From positions 1-49,270 of IMG/VR virus record IMGVR_UViG_3300021963_000191: a stretch of 49,270 bases of DNA. One strand, 5' to 3'. The first letter of the stretch is position 1. Every line of letters starts with the position of its first letter. Below the pieces are notes generated by a model. The model saw only the letters and a list, made by a program, of their open reading frames with translations. It was not told the DNA's origin and ran no database searches. Source of the DNA: a virus. The position numbers and the translations under genes are program-made. Shown here one piece after another: positions 1 to 48,901 of the stretch.

Positions 1-235
1 AACCAGATTTTATTGCACAAGGAGCACAACCCCAAGTAGAAACATACTTCTCATAACTACCGCATTTTTTACAGGCAGTAGAACCTTCATAAGTTTTCTT
101 ACCTTCTTTTATTGCATTTTCACGAGCAGCACTTTTTTGAGTATATCCTTGTGCTTTTGCCTTTTCTTTATTTCTTTTTAAATTTTCCCCCATTATCCGT
201 TTCCTTTCTTCGGGGGTATATTTTGGTTTAGTCAT
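1..235 (-). CDS. Zinc-ribbon protein, 3' end cut by window edge
   Basis: This frame opens with ATG at 235 and runs off the left edge after 78 codons with no stop. The first half is lysine- and arginine-rich. It is followed by a Cys-x2-Cys, x11, Cys-x2-Cys pair (residues about 58-75), a compact zinc-ribbon pattern. I associate this N-terminal pattern (AIKEGKKTY then ACKKCG) with phage proteins that continue into an endonuclease VII or HNH nuclease domain, but that part lies outside the window, so the nuclease role is inference. It sits downstream of gp55 behind its own perfect late promoter. A GGAG ribosome site at about 246-250 lies in one arm of an 11-bp inverted repeat. Confidence 0.6.
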   Translation of the reverse strand, partial: MTKPKYTPEERKRIMGENLKRNKEKAKAQGYTQKSAARENAIKEGKKTYEGSTACKKCGSYEKYVSTWGCAPCAIKSG

Positions 236-245
236 AAGTATTTGT

Positions 246-284
246 AACTCCAAAGTGTATAGTTATTTATAATACTTTGGAGTT
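246..284 (-). promoter_or_regulatory. 11-bp inverted repeat enclosing a late promoter and covering a ribosome site
   Basis: The arms AACTCCAAAGT (246-256) and ACTTTGGAGTT (274-284) are perfectly complementary with a 17-base loop. On minus-strand RNA the downstream arm carries the GGAG ribosome site of the left-edge gene. RNA read through from gp55 would contain both arms and hide that site. RNA started at the late promoter in the loop would lack the upstream arm. No T-run follows on either strand, so it does not look like an intrinsic terminator. Confidence 0.7.
264..271 (-). promoter_or_regulatory. T4-type late promoter for the left-edge gene
   Basis: The minus strand reads TATAAATA here, the exact T4 late -10 element, 28 bases before the ATG at 235. 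Known T4 spacing would start RNA near 257-258. The element lies in the loop of the inverted repeat at 246-284. Confidence 0.75.
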
Positions 285-292
285 AGAGAAGG

Positions 293-781: not shown

Positions 782-811
782 ATTATAACATAACAATCAA
801 GAACTTGACAA
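782..811 (-). promoter_or_regulatory. Host sigma-70-type promoter for gp55
   Basis: The minus strand has TTGTCA (806-811), an 18-base spacer and a perfect TATAAT (782-787). RNA would start near 775, giving only about 15 untranslated bases before the gp55 ATG. This fits early or middle expression of the late sigma factor by the unmodified host polymerase. Confidence 0.7.
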
Positions 812-3770: not shown

Positions 3771-5159
3771 TTACATTAAATTGTCTACACGCACACGACG
3801 GTAGTAACGGTTTGCATTAGCAAGAAGACGACCAGAACCCTGAGCAGTACCCTCAGCGAATGGATTAGCAACCATACCATAACGAGTCTTGAACCCGATT
3901 TTTGGCTGGAAGGTGTTCTCACCAACGGCACGAACCATTTGGAGGGGCACATAAGGACAATAGAAGAGTCCTGCATCATAAGGCGAAGAACCTTTATATC
4001 CTACAACGTAGTACTGATTAGCAGATACGTTAGCAGCATATGGGTCAATATATACACGATACTTGCCTTGAAGAACACCAGCAAAAGTGTTGCCGGTATC
4101 ATCAACATTCAAGTTTGCATTGAGTGCTGGGGTATAATCAAGAACACCTGCCATTGTGAGTGCCGAAGCAACGTCAGCAGAGCAGAGAATCATATTACCC
4201 TTTCCTCTACGAGTTCTTTGTGCGATTGCGTTTGCATCGCGCTCGATTTGGAATAAAAGACCTTTGAACTTCTCAACGGACCAACGTCCGTTTGAATCCA
4301 CATCGAGGTCGAAAATACCAGCAGTAGCGGTATTAACAGCAGCACCTTGCTCGGCAATTTTATAAACGGTACGAATTACTTCACGGTTAATTTCAGCAAG
4401 AATCTCAGTGGAGAGAATGTTTGCCAATTCCGCTTCAGCATTTAGTCCGTGAATTGCCTTGAGGTCTTGTGCAAGCTCAAGTGAATACTCGGCTTTCAGA
4501 GCGCGTGACTTTGCAGTAACAGTAACTTTCTCGATTGAGAAAGCCATTTCATTGAACTGGTTACCAGCTGCATCTCCAAGTGCTTCAGCAGAAGCAGTAC
4601 CCATTGCTTGACCAGTAGCATAGGTATTAGTTGCAGCAGTTCCAACTGGATTCAAAAGTCCAGGATTGGTTCCTGCTGGGTTTGAAGTAGTACCGAAACC
4701 AGCTGCGCCATCAGTGAAACCTGAAGTAACATCAAAACCGGAATCTTGACCGGAGAATGAAGTATCTGCTTCGTTGAAGAGTGCTTCAGATCCCGACTGA
4801 TTAGTATAACGTGAACGCATTGCGAAGATAAGTCCAGTAGGACCATTCATTGGTTGTACACCAGCAAGGTCATAAGCGACCAAGTTAGGCATAGAACGAC
4901 GAATTAGGCTAATTAGAACTGGGTCGAAACCTGCTACAGGACCGGTTGCAGTAGAAGAACCACTGAAACCACCAGACCCTGCGGCCATTGTTGGTGTTTC
5001 ATAAAGGAATTGATTTTCCTCTCTTAAAAACTTTTCTTGATTTTCTAACAGGACTGCGGTTACCATTCTGCGATGTGAGTCCTTGATTGAATCAAGACCC
5101 TCATAATTAAGTAGTGGTGCCCACTTCTCCTGCAGACGTTCTCCATCGAACATTTGCAT
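3771..5159 (-). CDS. gp23: gp23, major capsid protein
   Basis: A 462-aa homologue of T4 gp23 (521 aa), the HK97-fold hexamer of the head. Recognised by the N-terminal EKWAPLLNYEG (11-21), the LIRRSMPNLVAYDLAGVQPM segment (about 85-104) and the C-terminal PKIGFKTRYGMVANPFAEG. In T4 the precursor is trimmed by gp21 after an (L/I)xE site; here LYE at 52-54 before a Gly/Ser-rich stretch is a plausible cut, by inference. The ribosome site AGAGGT is strong. A CATAAATC element (5191-5198) about 31 bases upstream may be a late promoter variant. The gene is visibly richer in G and C than its neighbours, as expected for a very highly expressed gene. Confidence 0.97.
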   Translation of the reverse strand: MQMFDGERLQEKWAPLLNYEGLDSIKDSHRRMVTAVLLENQEKFLREENQFLYETPTMAAGSGGFSGSSTATGPVAGFDPVLISLIRRSMPNLVAYDLAGVQPMNGPTGLIFAMRSRYTNQSGSEALFNEADTSFSGQDSGFDVTSGFTDGAAGFGTTSNPAGTNPGLLNPVGTAATNTYATGQAMGTASAEALGDAAGNQFNEMAFSIEKVTVTAKSRALKAEYSLELAQDLKAIHGLNAEAELANILSTEILAEINREVIRTVYKIAEQGAAVNTATAGIFDLDVDSNGRWSVEKFKGLLFQIERDANAIAQRTRRGKGNMILCSADVASALTMAGVLDYTPALNANLNVDDTGNTFAGVLQGKYRVYIDPYAANVSANQYYVVGYKGSSPYDAGLFYCPYVPLQMVRAVGENTFQPKIGFKTRYGMVANPFAEGTAQGSGRLLANANRYYRRVRVDNLM

Positions 5160-7851: not shown

Positions 7852-9529
7852 TCTCTCCACCTTTCGGCATTTCAATTTCTGCTGCTTTTCCTTGTTTTTC
7901 TAAATCTGGTTCCATTATTGGTTGCCCTAAATTCATTTCGTTGGGAGAAGATTGCATCGGCATTCCAGTAGTTGGGTCAATTGGTTGATTTGGATCTGGA
8001 ATAATTCCTTCTTTAATTTCTTTTTGAATTTGAGCATCAATTTCTTTCATTTGTCCATCAGATTGCTTTAATACTTTTGATCTGATGTATTGTGCTGAAA
8101 AGTATTTACCAATATAAGGTTCCATTGCAGCAACAACCCCAAGTTGATCATTGCGAAGTTCATTTTCTTTTAGATCCGAAAAATGATTATCATAAACATA
8201 ATCATATTGAATATGCTCTCTCAAAACTTCCCAATCTTGTAGTGTAACTATATTTTTCAAAATCAATTGTGTTTTTAGCATATCATTAAAGACTTCTGAA
8301 AATCTTTTTCTAAGTCTTCCTACAAATCTAGTAAATTTAAGTTCATCTCTTAAAATTTCAGATGAACGGCCAAGATTGAAACCACCACCACCAACATCGA
8401 TTCGACTTGAAGGTACATTTAACGATTTGTAAAGTTTCTTTTGAAAATATTCAATATCAGCAAGTTCTCCAAGATTTTGTCCGCCTGGAAGTGTAGTAAT
8501 TTCAGTTCCTCTTCCACCCTCTCTTCGTGGTAACCAGAAATCTTCCAACATAGCCATATATTTGCGATCATCTTTAATCTCTCCTGTATCTGCATTATAA
8601 ACTAACTTATTTCGATAACGATTCATCACATCACGAAGATATTGTTCTGCTTTAATTTTTGGAAGATTGCCGACATCAATATAAAATATTCTTCTTTCTG
8701 GTGCTCTAGAAAGTCTATAAATCACAAGGCTATCTTCAATCATTCTCAATTGATTGAGTGCTTTAATTGATTTATGAAGATAAGATAAAATAGTTTGCTT
8801 ATTTCGATCTACAAGACCTGATGTTACATAGGTAATAGCATCTTTTGCAATTTTTACACTTTTTGCATCATTGCGAAAAGAGATTGATCCACTTGATCCA
8901 ATAGAAGAATTTGGATCATAAAGATAATATTCTTCTATTTTTGGTGCTTGATGAATATCTATTGGTTCGTTACTTCTACTTGATGATGCTGGAAAATTTG
9001 CATTTTGTCCAGTTTGTTCTGCCTTACGAATAAAACGAATTTTAATTGGATCAATATATCTAATTTCTTGAATTCCAGCAGAAGGATTTTTTAAGTCAAT
9101 TACTTTATGGTAAAAAATCTTTCCATCTACGTACCAATTTCTAAAAATTTCGTGTGCTTTTCTATCAAAATCCATAATTTCTTTAATGGATTTAAATTCA
9201 TCACGAATAATTTGTTTTAATTTGTCTGATGCTGGAAGATTTGAAAGTTCGATTTCTACTGGTGAATCATTCAAATCTGATACAATAGCTTCATTTACGA
9301 CATCTTCAATCGCACTATCACATTCTGGGTGTAAAGCCATTTCACGATATCTTTTTACAAGATCTTGTTCATTCTTATAAACACCTTCAATATCTACATA
9401 TTGCCCATAAAAACCACTTTGAATGTAATAATCAGATTTATCTTCTTCATTAGGAGGAACTGGAGAAACAAGTTTTTTTGACTTATCTACTCCAGTATCT
9501 TGTATTTTGAACCCAAACAACTTAGACAT
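7847..9529 (-). CDS. gp20: gp20, portal vertex protein
   Basis: A 560-aa homologue of T4 gp20 (524 aa), the dodecameric portal through which DNA enters and leaves the head. Recognisable segments are RYREMALHPECDSAIEDVVNE near residue 60, FRNWYVDGKIFYHKVID (about 107-123), RAPERRIFYIDVGNLPK (about 277-293) and FWLPRREGGRGTEITTLPGG (about 332-351), the region used for marine portal PCR surveys. I start at the ATG at 9529; one more upstream codon in frame is TTG. A CATAAATA late-promoter variant lies 24 bases upstream, over the gp19 stop. The C-terminus is rich in Pro, Met and Glu, probably a flexible tail. Confidence 0.97.
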   Translation of the reverse strand: MSKLFGFKIQDTGVDKSKKLVSPVPPNEEDKSDYYIQSGFYGQYVDIEGVYKNEQDLVKRYREMALHPECDSAIEDVVNEAIVSDLNDSPVEIELSNLPASDKLKQIIRDEFKSIKEIMDFDRKAHEIFRNWYVDGKIFYHKVIDLKNPSAGIQEIRYIDPIKIRFIRKAEQTGQNANFPASSSRSNEPIDIHQAPKIEEYYLYDPNSSIGSSGSISFRNDAKSVKIAKDAITYVTSGLVDRNKQTILSYLHKSIKALNQLRMIEDSLVIYRLSRAPERRIFYIDVGNLPKIKAEQYLRDVMNRYRNKLVYNADTGEIKDDRKYMAMLEDFWLPRREGGRGTEITTLPGGQNLGELADIEYFQKKLYKSLNVPSSRIDVGGGGFNLGRSSEILRDELKFTRFVGRLRKRFSEVFNDMLKTQLILKNIVTLQDWEVLREHIQYDYVYDNHFSDLKENELRNDQLGVVAAMEPYIGKYFSAQYIRSKVLKQSDGQMKEIDAQIQKEIKEGIIPDPNQPIDPTTGMPMQSSPNEMNLGQPIMEPDLEKQGKAAEIEMPKGGEI

Positions 9530-20409: not shown

Positions 20410-22854
20410 TTAGAATGTTCCTCCGTCCAAAGTATCAGTCCACATTGGTTTATTTGTATATATTGTTGTTACTGTTCCTGGTATTATTGAAATATTTGCA
20501 CCATTTACCTTCAAATCATTTGTAGTGTCAAATGTTCCCTGGGCACCAATTAATGTAATTGTTGTTCCAGAAACAGTAGTTTTAACCACACCATATGCCC
20601 CACTATTATTGACTTGTGTTACTTGATCACCAGCTGTTACTGATGTAGATGATGGAAGAGATAAATTAATTTCAGTAACAGCAGTTAAAATTTGAGTAGA
20701 AGTTCTGGTGCTTGATGCTGTGGATGGATTATTAGTAGAAGTTTGAAGTCCATCATTATCAAAGAATACAACACCGTGAGTATTAAAATCACCAGTTTGA
20801 TAATAAATTCCTTTAATATCTAAATAACCTCTGGTTCCGGTTATAACATTATTTGAATTTGTTGCATCTGGTACATAGGTCCAAGATCTTACTGGTGCAG
20901 CACTTCCACTATTAGTTGTATCGTGATAACCAAAAAATCCTGTTTTATTATTTGCAGTTCCTACACCGGTATTATAATCAAAAGAAATACCTCTATCGGT
21001 ATTTGTATCATAAGCGTGTATTACTGTTAATTGTGATATTGTACTAATTCCGGAACTTGTAGTTCCAGTAATTGTAATAATCTTTGTGGATGTATTATAT
21101 GCTGTAATCGTAGTCAGTCCACTATTTGGTAAAGCAGCATTACCAGTAATAATATCACCAGTATTAATACCAACAACAGAATCCAAAGAAATTGTAGATA
21201 CGCCAGATGCAACTGTTGCAACTACGGTTCTTACACTTGTAACTTCGCCAAGTGATAGAATTGCATCATTTACAGTAACATTACTTGAATTTACTGTAGT
21301 TGTGGTTCCATCAACTTGAAGATCGCCTTTAATAACGACCATTCCTTCATTACTTAATCCATCAGGATATGGATCAATGTATAATATATTTCCGCCACCA
21401 GATCTAGTTGAAATTACATTTGAACTAATTCCAATATTATCAATCGTAACCCCACCAGTATTGGTAAGAGGTCCGGTATGATTAATCGAACCTGTGATGG
21501 TTACAACATCGCCTGAAGCGTTTCCTAGAGTTGTATTACCATCAACTTGAAGGTTTCCTGTGAGTGTTAAATTTGAACCAGATTGATTTCCTGTTACATT
21601 TAAAATTCCGCCAATATAAACATTACTTACAATTCCAACACCACCGGCAACTCTTAATGCACCAGATGTTGTAGTTGTTGCATTTGTAGTTGCGGCAATC
21701 GAAACAAAAGAAGTATTAGGAGTGCTTGGAAAAGTGACGCTTGTTGCAGAAGATGTTGCACCAAGATTTAGTGTGGTCGCATTTGGAACACTTAAAGTCG
21801 CATTACGAATGGTTGCAATACCTGTCGTAGCACCCACCACTAGTGCCGTTGCAGCACCAGCGAAGTTCAGATTGGTTGCTACTGTATTATAAAGGTTCTG
21901 GGTCGCTTGAGTACCTACAACCGTTGGGTTATTGATAGTTGCAATACCAGATGTAGCACCCACCACCAGTGCCGTTGCAGCACCTAATACATTAGCATTC
22001 GTTACATTAGTATTGAAAAGATTAAGTGCTGCGGTATTACTAGTAACATCACCACCATCAATATTCAAATCTCCATCAAGATCTACTATTGCATTACGAA
22101 TGGTTGCAATACCTGTCGTAGCACCAATTACAATACTAGTACCAGCACCAAAGGCATTAACTGTTGTTGCATTTGCATTTAGTAAATTAAATGCTGTTAG
22201 ATTTGTGGTTATATCTCCACCATCAACATTTAAATCTAAATCAATATCTACATTTCCACCAACATTTAGATGAGTAGCAAAACCAACACCACCAGCAACT
22301 GTAAGAGATCCGGTCGTAGGAGTTGTTGAAGCAGTAGTATCGCTAATACTGATTGCAACATTATTTGCAAAATTCCAATCAGCACCTTCAATTTCAAATC
22401 TATCGTCGGTTGCTTCATCATATCTTAATTTTACATCTTTACTAGTTCCAAATGTTAAATATGTGTCGTCTGGGATTACAATTTCACCAGTTCCATTTGG
22501 ATCTAAATTTATATCCCCATCTACGTTTGTAGATGAAATTGTATTTAAATCAATCGTAATATTATCTACGTTCCACTGATTGACTTTACGATTACTGTCA
22601 AGGATAGCAACAAATCCATTTGCCGCAGTTGTTGGATTTGATTGACCCGCAACTAATCCAGGAGCAATACTTAAAAGGTCTGTATAGTATCTACCACCAA
22701 CTACTAGTGGGTTGGAGGAGTTGTCTCCTACAAATAATCTACCGCCACTATTGCCGTGCGTTCCAACCCCAATTGTAAGACCAAGTTCCCCATAATTAAG
22801 AGTTGCCGGAGCAATTGTTCCTGTGGACCTTTTAACTCTAATTATACTTGCCAT
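20410..22854 (-). CDS. Repeat-rich fibre-like virion protein, 814 aa
   Basis: The N-terminus (about 1-60: TLNYGELGLTIG, then GGRLFVGDN) is the head module seen in many phage tail-fibre and structural proteins. The middle is beta-solenoid-like, with three tandem copies of about 45 residues (VDGGDITTN...FNLLNANAT...TGIATIRNA) at about 210-350. The phrase TGSLTVAGGVG / SGALRVAGGVG occurs twice, followed by paired INVTGN-like turns. The C-terminal region (about 500-814) has LQVDGTTTTVNSSNVTVND and FFGYHDT. Composition is Asn, Thr, Gly, Val and Ala with almost no Cys. It resembles a trimeric surface fibre, possibly attached to the neck or baseplate. The receptor role is inference. Confidence 0.65.
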   Translation of the reverse strand: MASIIRVKRSTGTIAPATLNYGELGLTIGVGTHGNSGGRLFVGDNSSNPLVVGGRYYTDLLSIAPGLVAGQSNPTTAANGFVAILDSNRKVNQWNVDNITIDLNTISSTNVDGDINLDPNGTGEIVIPDDTYLTFGTSKDVKLRYDEATDDRFEIEGADWNFANNVAISISDTTASTTPTTGSLTVAGGVGFATHLNVGGNVDIDLDLNVDGGDITTNLTAFNLLNANATTVNAFGAGTSIVIGATTGIATIRNAIVDLDGDLNIDGGDVTSNTAALNLFNTNVTNANVLGAATALVVGATSGIATINNPTVVGTQATQNLYNTVATNLNFAGAATALVVGATTGIATIRNATLSVPNATTLNLGATSSATSVTFPSTPNTSFVSIAATTNATTTTSGALRVAGGVGIVSNVYIGGILNVTGNQSGSNLTLTGNLQVDGNTTLGNASGDVVTITGSINHTGPLTNTGGVTIDNIGISSNVISTRSGGGNILYIDPYPDGLSNEGMVVIKGDLQVDGTTTTVNSSNVTVNDAILSLGEVTSVRTVVATVASGVSTISLDSVVGINTGDIITGNAALPNSGLTTITAYNTSTKIITITGTTSSGISTISQLTVIHAYDTNTDRGISFDYNTGVGTANNKTGFFGYHDTTNSGSAAPVRSWTYVPDATNSNNVITGTRGYLDIKGIYYQTGDFNTHGVVFFDNDGLQTSTNNPSTASSTRTSTQILTAVTEINLSLPSSTSVTAGDQVTQVNNSGAYGVVKTTVSGTTITLIGAQGTFDTTNDLKVNGANISIIPGTVTTIYTNKPMWTDTLDGGTF
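21800..22225 (-). repeat. Three tandem approximately 135-145 bp repeats in the fibre-like gene
   Basis: Copies start near 21806, 21938 and 22092 on the plus strand, each opening with a version of ATTACGAATGGTTGCAATAC followed by GTAGCACC and GCAGCACC stretches. Copies one and three share the opening 20 bases exactly. The repeat keeps frame, so unequal recombination could change fibre length. Confidence 0.8.
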
Positions 22855-23081
22855 TAAAAGTTACCTCCGTTGATGTCCAAATTTTGGGTATTGCCTGGTG
22901 TTAAATTTAAAGTTGCTTCCCACTTAGATATTGCAGAATTATATACTAGGACCATACCATTCAATAAACCTTCACTAATACTAACATCATCCAACCCACT
23001 TAAAGTTCCACTACTACCAGAAAGAGACGATATAACTTTAAGTGCATTTTGGGATCCAACTCTGACTCTTATGTCTGCCAT
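22854..23081 (-). CDS. Short fibre-associated virion protein, 75 aa
   Basis: A 75-aa protein ADIRVRVGSQNALKVISSLS followed by LSGLDDVSIS and GMVLVYNSAISKWEAT. The last two phrases are the linker motif (LSDV...DG.VLVYN...KWV) found repeatedly in phage tail fibres, so this is likely a small fibre or adaptor. It starts next to the 112-aa gene (six bases apart) and its TAA overlaps the ATG of the 814-aa gene by one base. It ends in INGGNF, and the 814-aa protein ends in LDGGTF, so the two share a C-terminal phrase. Confidence 0.65.
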   Translation of the reverse strand: MADIRVRVGSQNALKVISSLSGSSGTLSGLDDVSISEGLLNGMVLVYNSAISKWEATLNLTPGNTQNLDINGGNF

Positions 23082-38700: not shown

Positions 38701-41700
38701 TCCAACATAATCTATTCTAGCAATGTCTTTGATAATACAAACCGCTGGAATACTTAATTGCGGTAAAGTTGTAGGATCTGTCGGATAATCAAACCCATCT
38801 TTGATTCTGTCAATTGATATTATTTTTCCAATTTCTTCTGAAGTTGGATATAAAATTGCGCCACTTCCAGTTGTACTTGCAATTGAAACAATTGAAGGAA
38901 TTTTTGAATAAGATTTTCCTTTAGAATTGATTCTTACTTTTGATATTGAACCAGTAGAATTGATTGAATCTGTATCATAAAAAACCGATGAAATACCCGA
39001 TGTTTGTGTGTATGAAGTATCTTCTGGTTTTTGTTTTAAATTAAATTTAAATGAAGTAGAATTAATTCCTATTATTGAATAGTCGCTATTCAATAAACTT
39101 TGCCTAATGTCAATTTTATTATTTCCAAATACTTCAAAATCAGAAGACAATTGAAAAGCATCAATATCAAAAAGAGAAGTTGGAGAAAATTTATAATAAA
39201 GCAAATTTGGAATATTTCTTTGATTTGTTGTTATTGTAACAGCAACACCAGATCTATTAATAGCTAATGAATTTGTTTTCTTTTTATCTATTTCGAATCT
39301 TTTTTGAAAATTTTGATCTTTGTAAAATTCTAATTTTAAATCATTTAAAGATAAATCTGATACATCAAAAGTAATTACATCCCCTTTGGTAAAAGATAAT
39401 GGAGGATTTATGAGTGCGATATTATGAGTACCTACACCAACAGAGGTAAATGTGATTCCAATTCCAATTGATGCATCATATGCATAATTTGATAATTGTA
39501 TTTTGTCTGGATTTTGTTTAATTACATAATAAATTGAACCATCAACTAATCCTCCAATACCTACATTTCCTGCATAGTATATTATTTTATCTCCTGTTTT
39601 TAAATTATTATTTGGAATATTAATATTTGAAGTTCCCCCTATAGAAACAAAATTAGTAGAAATACCTATCAAATCGGTTGTTATTTTTTTATTTTTTCTA
39701 TCAAATCTAAATTTAATACTTTCTTCTCTTGACGGAAGAACTGTAAATTTAATTTTATCTCCGTTAAATAAACCATGAGGATCAGAAGTTGTTACAATTC
39801 CCGCATAGTTTTGAACTCTTCCAGTAATTTTTGGATAATATGTTGTCAATGAATGCGAATAACCAACGGAAGAATTATATAAAAACGTTACCGAATTTAA
39901 TGTTGTTCCAATACCAACAGAAGTAGTAAATCCTAGAGTTGAAATACCAAGAAAATTATTTCCAAAATTTACAGCATATACAATTTGATTATTATTTAAT
40001 GTTATTGGTGCTCCATTAGACTCCGAATATGCACTAATTCCAGCTCCTGTAGAATAATTATATACCAATGGTTGTCCAGTATAAAATCTATGATTTTCTA
40101 GATATATGGATTTTTCTGGAACAAATCTGATATTTATTGTACTGGTTCCAATACCTACAACAGAATAAGTAGATCCAGATTGTCCATATCCAATAGTATT
40201 TGTCGGGTCAAAGTAAACAGTTTTATTTTCTGGAATTGTATACCCAATTGCTTTTGGTTCAAAAAATTCAAATTTATTTGTAAGAAGTCTTACGCTTTCA
40301 ATTCCTACTGTATGAATTCCTCCACCAGATTGCCTATTGACTAAAATTTGAGATTTTTTTGAATCAATGCCGGTGATGATCATATATTCTGTTCCAATAC
40401 CAATATTATCACTTACCTCAAATCCAACAACATCTTTAACTGTGAGATATGTTGATATTCCTGTCGTAGATGTATTTTGTAACGTTTCTACCAATTCTGT
40501 CGTTTTTTGGTTTACGAAGATAGTTTTAACACCTTCTAATTGTGAAAGAGAAATTGTAGACAACCCAGAAATAACTACTTCATCACCTGTGGTTAAATTA
40601 TGAATAAATGAAGTTATTCCTACAATTTGATTCAAAGTATTTTCCTTTGAATAAAAAATTACATCATTAAAAGTAGTCACTCCAACTATAAGATTTGATA
40701 TATTTTTACCAGATATTCTTGAAATTTGGGCACTCACACCTGTGCCGTCTGGTGTGTTAGAAAATTTAATTACATCATTCACAGAATAATTTGAACCAAA
40801 ATTGTCAATAAAAATAGAAGAAATTCCAGATTTTTTAATATCTTTTACAATAAATTCTTGTTTTAAATTTGGAGAAATTTTTTCAATAATTTCATAACCA
40901 GAATTTATGGAATCTACATAATAATTACTAAAATTTCTAATTATATTATAAGTTGAAATGTTTGTTTTTTGTGAAAAACTTGGATTAAAGTTTTCTAAAA
41001 TTGGCGTATCTTTAAATTTTTGACTAATTACATATGGATATAATGGGTTTAATATATTTGATATTAGTTCAAATGTTGTAAAATAAGCATATGTCCCATA
41101 TGGATATTCTGGAGTAATGCAATATCTTCCATTATATTCATCCAAATCTCCGGAAGAATTATATTCATAATCATTAATAAAAAATCCATTTACAAAATTA
41201 TTTGGTCTAAGATCATTAGTTGGTAATGATTTTTTACTATAACTAGATGAAATTAATTTAATGGTAGTATCATTTAAATTTTCATATCCATATGGACCAT
41301 AAATTGGATTTCCATCATATGCCCATCCCACAATTGGGGAATGTCGAAATGAAGAAGTTTGTTCTTGATTATTGTCTAAAATATTATCTGAAAGATTTTT
41401 TCTAAATTGTCTTGACAAATAAAAATTTATTGGTTGTAACCCCAAATTCAAATCTAATGCTGGATATGAAAGTGTTTCGTCATCGCCACCATTTACTAGA
41501 ATTGTATTTTTATTTTTTTCAACTTGATCAATTTTCCATTCAAAAACGTCTACTACAAATTTTAAATCAGATCCTCTTCTTACTGCGCTTAATGTTGTAT
41601 TTGATGAAGCATAACCAACTCCACCGTCAACAATAGAAAAATTTACAATTGATCCATTTTCAATTATTGGTTTTAAGTCGGCATATTTTCCTTCACCATA

Positions 41701-48856: not shown

Positions 48857-48901
48857 AGAAAAATACCTCTATAAGACTTGTTTAAATCTCATAGAGGTAT
48901 T
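48857..48901 (-). terminator. Terminator after the glycosyltransferase-like gene
   Basis: Minus-strand RNA pairs AAUACCUCUAU with AUAGAGGUAUU (11 bp, with three more pairs inside after a mismatch) and is followed by a UUUUU run. This is a good intrinsic terminator for the gene ending at 48949. Its upstream arm overlaps the -10 element of the promoter at 48899-48904, so RNA started there should not form the full hairpin. Confidence 0.75.

Follow-up and report, generated by a model that had tools for sequence, protein, structure and literature searches.

The window analysed here, a complete IMG/VR record of 49,270 bases, carries gp55 on its minus strand, together with a UvsW-like helicase gene, a small gene and a partial gene that runs off the left edge (Table 1). 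Hundreds of cyanophage records align at the gp55 interval, with gp55 annotation among the matches listed; the Sigma70_r2 match of the window gp55 was weak and fell below the cut-off. The original prediction had placed an early promoter ahead of gp55, and this site does agree with the sigma-70-type consensus at 11 of 12 positions. The match lies within AT-rich DNA and, because the consensus scan returned 11 matches of this grade where 8.3 were expected, the site is treated as a candidate only. A terminator scan between this candidate and the hairpin described below identified no terminator-like site. A near-consensus sigma-70-like sequence (TTGACA-17-TAAAAT) was also observed on the plus strand at 805–833, where it overlaps the gp55 promoter candidate in antisense orientation.

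Table 1. Features at the left edge of the window, all on the minus strand.
Feature	Coordinates	Strand	Basis or remark
Putative mobile nuclease gene, N-terminal 78 aa (first 78 codons), cut by the contig end	2..235	-	Full-length relatives are 174–219 aa
Zinc-ribbon-like CxxC...CxxC (C55, C58, C70, C73)	17..73	-	Invariant in the first five-protein alignment
Downstream hairpin arm, RNA ACUUUGGAGUUA	245..256	-	Sequence, repeat search
GGAG, likely ribosome site inside the downstream arm	248..251	-	Sequence; opening cost modelled
Predicted late start (+1), ±1–2 nt	258..258	-	Inferred from the T4 box at −13 to −6 (PMC2988020)
Late-promoter box TATAAATA, in the loop	264..271	-	Kept in 60/67 related loci, fixed distance to ATG
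Upstream hairpin arm, RNA UAACUCCAAAGU	274..285	-	Predicted missing from late RNA; covariation in relatives
gp55, late-transcription sigma factor, 155 aa	293..760	-	Upstream neighbour of the element
Candidate early sigma-70-type promoter of gp55, TTGTCA-18-TATAAT, TG ahead of the second hexamer	782..811	-	Consensus scan alone, 11/12

Directly after the gp55 stop codon, the minus strand contains an inverted repeat (285–274/256–245) of 12 bp, 100% complementary, with a 17-nt loop. It had been described as a perfect 11-bp repeat; it is indeed perfect, but the outer T-A pair had been missed. The placement of GGAG in the downstream arm and of the late box in the loop was borne out. The window ATG lies at 235–233, with GGAG 12 nt ahead of it, a long gap for a Shine-Dalgarno site. 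In T4, the late box occupies positions −13 to −6 (PMC2988020), and by this analogy late transcription would start near 258, so that the late RNA would hold the downstream arm without the upstream arm. Perfect inverted repeats of at least 11 bp with loops of 3–30 nt numbered six in the window, compared to a mean of 0.9 in eight dinucleotide shuffles, and only the repeat behind gp55 has TATAAATA in its loop. The five others, all perfect 11-bp repeats, lie at 8900–8939, 20633–20682, 22997–23044, 39072–39096 and 48862–48901. By itself, TATAAATA shows no enrichment, with 6 occurrences in the window where 10.6 would be expected. Folding of the minus strand from 295 to 200 gave −16.8 kcal/mol (z −3.95), a value that none of 200 shuffles matched. 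To see whether other late promoters share the device, the remaining NATAAATA sites of the window were scored; none had a stem as good, although some random positions also reach that level on this loose score.

Relatives were gathered by scans with gp55, the leader DNA and the nuclease N-terminus, and the sample consists of metagenomic assemblies except for a few cultured phages. The zinc-ribbon gene was found at 69 distinct loci, the window counted in, two of which lacked upstream sequence, leaving 67 usable. In 60 of these, [T/C]ATAAATA stands in the hairpin loop at a constant spacing to the start codon, once as CATAAATA and otherwise as TATAAATA. The leaders fall into two types. Type 1, which has a long N-terminus like the window, places the box 28 nt from the ATG; type 2, which has a short N-terminus, places the box 20–23 nt and the ribosome site 3–5 nt upstream of the ATG. 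Among the seven exceptions, three (L141, L150, L159) have the hairpin with a degenerate box, two (L100, L184) have the arms with the loop and its late box gone (TTTCTAACTCGAGTTAGAAA; GCTCCGTAATGCTATAGCATTACGGAGC), which could be due to deletion or assembly errors, and two (L168, L248) deviate further. Across all fetched loci there were 326 distinct NATAAATA sites, 52 of them nested in a perfect repeat of at least 9 bp, and 50 of those 52 belong to these nuclease elements, one on the opposite strand. Outside the elements, nesting was seen only at L267 and L029 among the fetched loci. The L267 case (position 3972, minus strand) lies away from the nuclease element; an inverted repeat of 9 bp, AACTGAACT/AGTTCAGTT, encloses its TATAAATA, and another GTTCAGT follows. 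The reverse strand of the L099 hairpin loop also reads CATAAATA, so a bidirectional late promoter is possible there.

The arms around the late box of the elements differ from copy to copy and change together, as in the pairs TGCTCCAAAGTGTT/AACACTTTGGAGCA (L134), TGCTCCGTAATGTT/AACATTACGGAGCA (L125) and GCACCATAGTGT/ACACTATGGTGC (L163). In a set of 43 distinct arm pairs, the true partners were paired at 89.0% of positions. Dealing the partners out at random gave 79.1% on average and 83.4% at most, and none of 2000 deals reached the level of the true pairs. Sliding the register by one or two bases left 30–47% pairing. This arm-swap test compares pairing with the kinship among sequences left in. 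Taken alone, type 2 retained significant covariation by arm swap (0/2000 deals as good), whereas type 1 did not (238/2000 deals as good) because its arms vary little. MAFFT followed by RNAalifold returned no structure for type 2, since the arms shift relative to the promoter; arm-anchored pairing counts with the arm-swap and slide controls were used in their place. Several type-1 relatives have GGTT, GGAA or GCAG where the window has GGAG, and a purine-rich stretch closer to the ATG is then paired. In L095, L099 and L105, the purine-rich site nearer the ATG is covered by an outward extension of the stem.

Thermodynamic modelling was used to compare the ribosome site in RNA read through from gp55 with the same site in late RNA. 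The median predicted cost of opening fell from 12.0 kcal/mol for read-through RNA to 1.1 kcal/mol for late RNA, and the read-through RNA was the costlier in 60/60 loci. When the upstream-arm stretch was shuffled in five loci, the mean opening cost dropped from 5.6–16.2 to 1.2–4.5 kcal/mol. The modelled stem covers the ribosome site in read-through RNA, and the promoter lies where a start near 258 would leave the late RNA free of the upstream arm. In the late RNA of most type-2 relatives, the ribosome site was predicted to be free (mean unpaired often >0.6). The window copy is a weaker case, at 11.2 kcal/mol for read-through and 4.8 kcal/mol for late RNA, because GGAG can re-pair inside the late RNA. 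The fold of the window late RNA was not better than shuffles. The device originally proposed, an early block relieved in late RNA, agrees with the promoter staying in the loop and the arms changing together in 60 relatives, as well as with these modelled costs. Relatives that keep the promoter and lose the complementarity of the arms, the pattern named in advance as speaking against such a device, were looked for, and the outcome did not overturn it. The proposal that late RNA would be free for translation fits most type-2 relatives; in the window copy the modelled release is only partial.

The same repeat could also act mainly as a DNA operator, a palindrome around the late box bound by the nuclease or another dimeric protein that represses its own gene, and such a role may coexist with the hairpin. 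The late box sits at the centre of the repeat, and I-TevI binds an operator overlapping its own late promoter (PMC2988022). A palindrome would equally give matched arm changes, and G.U changes (34) were not clearly above A.C changes (23). However, the arms differ widely among copies whose zinc ribbons are near-identical, and the ribosome site just ahead of the ATG regularly falls under the downstream arm. The three type-1 variants with a new purine-rich site, moreover, extend their pairing over that site. We consider it unlikely that the repeat is mainly an operator and favour an RNA hairpin that acts on the ribosome site.

At every locus with a readable downstream gene, that gene is gp47, whose start codon usually overlaps the nuclease stop codon. 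The element sits between gp55 and gp47, both of which are uninterrupted. Its presence at this one site is patchy and the empty sites are precise, with gp47 found within 25 nt of gp55 in 55 of the 76 readable gp55 loci. These comparisons bear on a further reading, in which the hairpin, placed immediately behind the gp55 stop codon, serves the gp55 RNA as a terminator, an RNase stop or a processing site and overlaps the ribosome site incidentally. Against this, no T-run follows the stem and the terminator scan was negative. The hairpin is missing from uninserted gp55 loci, moves together with the nuclease gene independently of gp55, and keeps a fixed spacing to the ATG. A role for gp55 RNA is therefore very improbable, and the hairpin is better regarded as the leader of the nuclease gene.

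The element and its flanks have different relatives. Between the window and L087 or L082, the element DNA is 95–97% identical, whereas the gp55 DNA is only about 70–71% identical. L002 is close to the window in gp55 (95.5%) and in the DNA upstream (96.7%) and has a different, type-2 element. Among locus pairs with >90% element identity, the gp55-side DNA was below 75% in 17 of 61. L098 has a type-2 leader stump (arm plus box, GCTCCATAGTGTTATAA) right before a type-1 hairpin, apparently the scar of one element replaced by another. In L002, gp47 residues 1–40 are 80% identical to another lineage vs. 60% to its own, and beyond about 80 residues the relationship is reversed (72–95% to its own lineage vs. 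35–68% to the other). The same 40 residues are 92% identical between two uninserted phages. No such switch of identity was found in the upstream gp55. This one-sided, co-conversion-like tract, seen at a single locus, is what would be expected if gp47 had been cut within its 5′ end and then repaired. An element that is far more similar between phages than its flanks are, together with this one tract, points to horizontal transfer with co-conversion of the flank. The anatomy of the element, its conservation with matched arms, its insertion and its transfer are read from comparison of the sequences themselves.

Full-length relatives of the partial gene (174–219 aa) have an N-terminal CxxC...CxxC ribbon and a C-terminus that is either HNH or Endonuclease VII, domains found in homing families. 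L082 matched HNH (PF01844, E 1.8e-6), with L002 and L084 giving HNH matches below the curated cut-off, and L089 matched Endonuclease_7 (PF02945, E 1.3e-23) at its C-terminus. The original association of the gene with Endonuclease VII is thus right for some members of the family, but L082 and L087, to which the window gene is most closely related, have HNH C-termini; the window copy itself ends ahead of the nuclease domain. Across the leader and ribbon, L082 and L089 are each 91–96% identical to the window, and their nuclease domains are then unrelated, indicating domain exchange. For the Endonuclease VII type, the best match among solved structures was the restriction enzyme Hpy99I, with T4 Endonuclease VII behind it. 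A C-terminal Endonuclease VII domain is also seen in the homing and restriction enzymes of the F-CphI clade, whereas the T4 resolvase is arranged differently (PMC6083498).

The further suggestion that the gene is gp49 was not supported. A gp49 resolvase would have an N-terminal Endonuclease VII domain, similarity over its whole length and the role of sole resolvase; here the nuclease domain is C-terminal, and a 213-kb relative encodes another Endonuclease VII elsewhere, in addition to the element. Together with the Hpy99I match, this indicates that the gene is not simply gp49, an identity also at odds with its horizontal movement as a gp55/gp47 insertion and with HNH in the closest relatives. 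More broadly, the gene could be any resident, non-mobile phage gene with a T4-like hairpin, such as a gp49 resolvase; T4 gene 49 does have an inhibitory structure (PMC3014915), and some relatives do have the Endonuclease_7 domain. Yet most gp55–gp47 junctions lack the gene and it is exchanged among lineages, and the same domain evidence applies, namely HNH in the closest relatives, the C-terminal position of the nuclease domain and the separate Endonuclease VII gene in one relative. We regard a resident gene as the most improbable of the alternatives.

Our preferred reading, to which we assign a probability of roughly 0.8, is that a T4-like phage harbours, between its gp55 and gp47, a free-standing homing-type nuclease gene that carries a hairpin-timed expression switch. 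RNA read through from gp55 would fold the 12-bp hairpin and hide GGAG, leaving the nuclease untranslated. Once the gp55 protein directs late transcription, RNA starting near 258 would lack the upstream arm and would be translatable. The gene would spread from phage to phage, probably through cleavage of uninserted relatives close to where gp47 begins, with the timed leader travelling along. In this scheme the early block and its release come from modelling, and the late start, the translational effect and the cleavage are proposed by analogy with T4 systems. More tentatively, and at somewhat below even odds, the leader and the zinc-ribbon N-terminus may form a mobile, self-timing cassette that recruits varied nuclease domains and repeatedly invades the junction behind the late-sigma gene; with a cut site in the gp47 start, the invader would always be wired to the adjacent sigma. 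The roughly 60 natural variants, some with a decayed box or a lost loop, make the need for late-only nuclease expression testable, and the 5′ end of gp47 is a concrete predicted location for the cut.

Cultured phages provided a mixed picture of the same junction. Synechococcus phage ACG-2014f (KJ019148) has a related nuclease at the site, with neither the box nor a matching hairpin. Between its gp55 and the annotated nuclease, a short, unannotated frame with the zinc ribbon only (L250:2318–2479, MNQYPTSSDNRRNDAHQEGRTTY...) is flanked by repeated AACTCATGA and appears to be a further element, either truncated or a remnant. In Synechococcus phage S-SRM01, an Endonuclease VII gene stands between gp55 and gp47 and TATAAATA lies within an AT-rich inverted repeat (L274:1446–1496); two competing stems around the box leave this case ambiguous. 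In S-CREM2 and RB11-B, NATAAATA occurs 28–30 nt upstream of the ATG and no strong nested stem was found. In the distant T4-like Rhizobium phage RHph_I1_18 (L275), a zinc-ribbon/Endonuclease VII gene likewise separates gp55 from a gp47-like gene, with neither hairpin nor late box at the nuclease gene, and a nuclease at the same junction in so distant a phage suggests that the junction has been invaded repeatedly. The late box NATAAATA was already known in cyanophages (PMC2984593). Among the papers listed by a full-text literature search that combined cyanophage homing endonucleases with hairpins or late promoters, no title or abstract opening described this element.

The regulatory device itself is established. 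In T4 e and I-TevI, a hairpin hides the ribosome site in early RNA and a late promoter by-passes it, inhibitory structures are known for soc and 49, and I-TevII, I-TevIII, segB and mobE of Aeromonas phage Aeh1 have similar arrangements (PMC2988022, PMC3014915). The element is therefore best classed as a new family that carries this known early-block/late-release device. What it adds is breadth, covariation, a late-sigma neighbour, nuclease domains that are swapped behind a single leader, and a prediction of where the cut falls. A device previously known in a few enteric and Aeromonas T4-type phages is extended to mobile nucleases of uncultured cyanophage-like T4 relatives, and the natural covariation is independent support for the hairpin. 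The resident T4 genes e, soc and 49 likewise have a ribosome site or start codon in an inhibitory structure, and e is released by late promoters (PMC3014915), but the element here is a moving insertion and not a gp49 orthologue. The T4-family homing endonucleases I-TevI, mobE and segB are closer parallels than gp49. Like the element, mobE and segB are free-standing nuclease genes in an earlier-expressed cluster, with a hairpin over the ribosome site and a promoter/hairpin layout similar to that of I-TevI (PMC2988022). The element differs from them in its type of protein, which joins a zinc ribbon to HNH or Endonuclease VII, in its place at gp55/gp47 and in its large natural series of matched arms. 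I-TevI, I-TevII and I-TevIII of T4 share the early-block leader, and the I-TevI late promoter lets late RNA escape the structure; these genes are intron-encoded, whereas the element lies between intact gp55 and gp47. Finally, F-CphI of cyanophage S-PM2, a member of the DHHRN family of homing endonucleases, shares with some of the elements the C-terminal Endonuclease VII domain with DHxH, R and CxxCN, and both are free-standing in genomes of T4-like cyanophages or their likes (PMC6083498). F-CphI adjoins psbA and works with an intron, whereas the closest relatives of the window gene have HNH.
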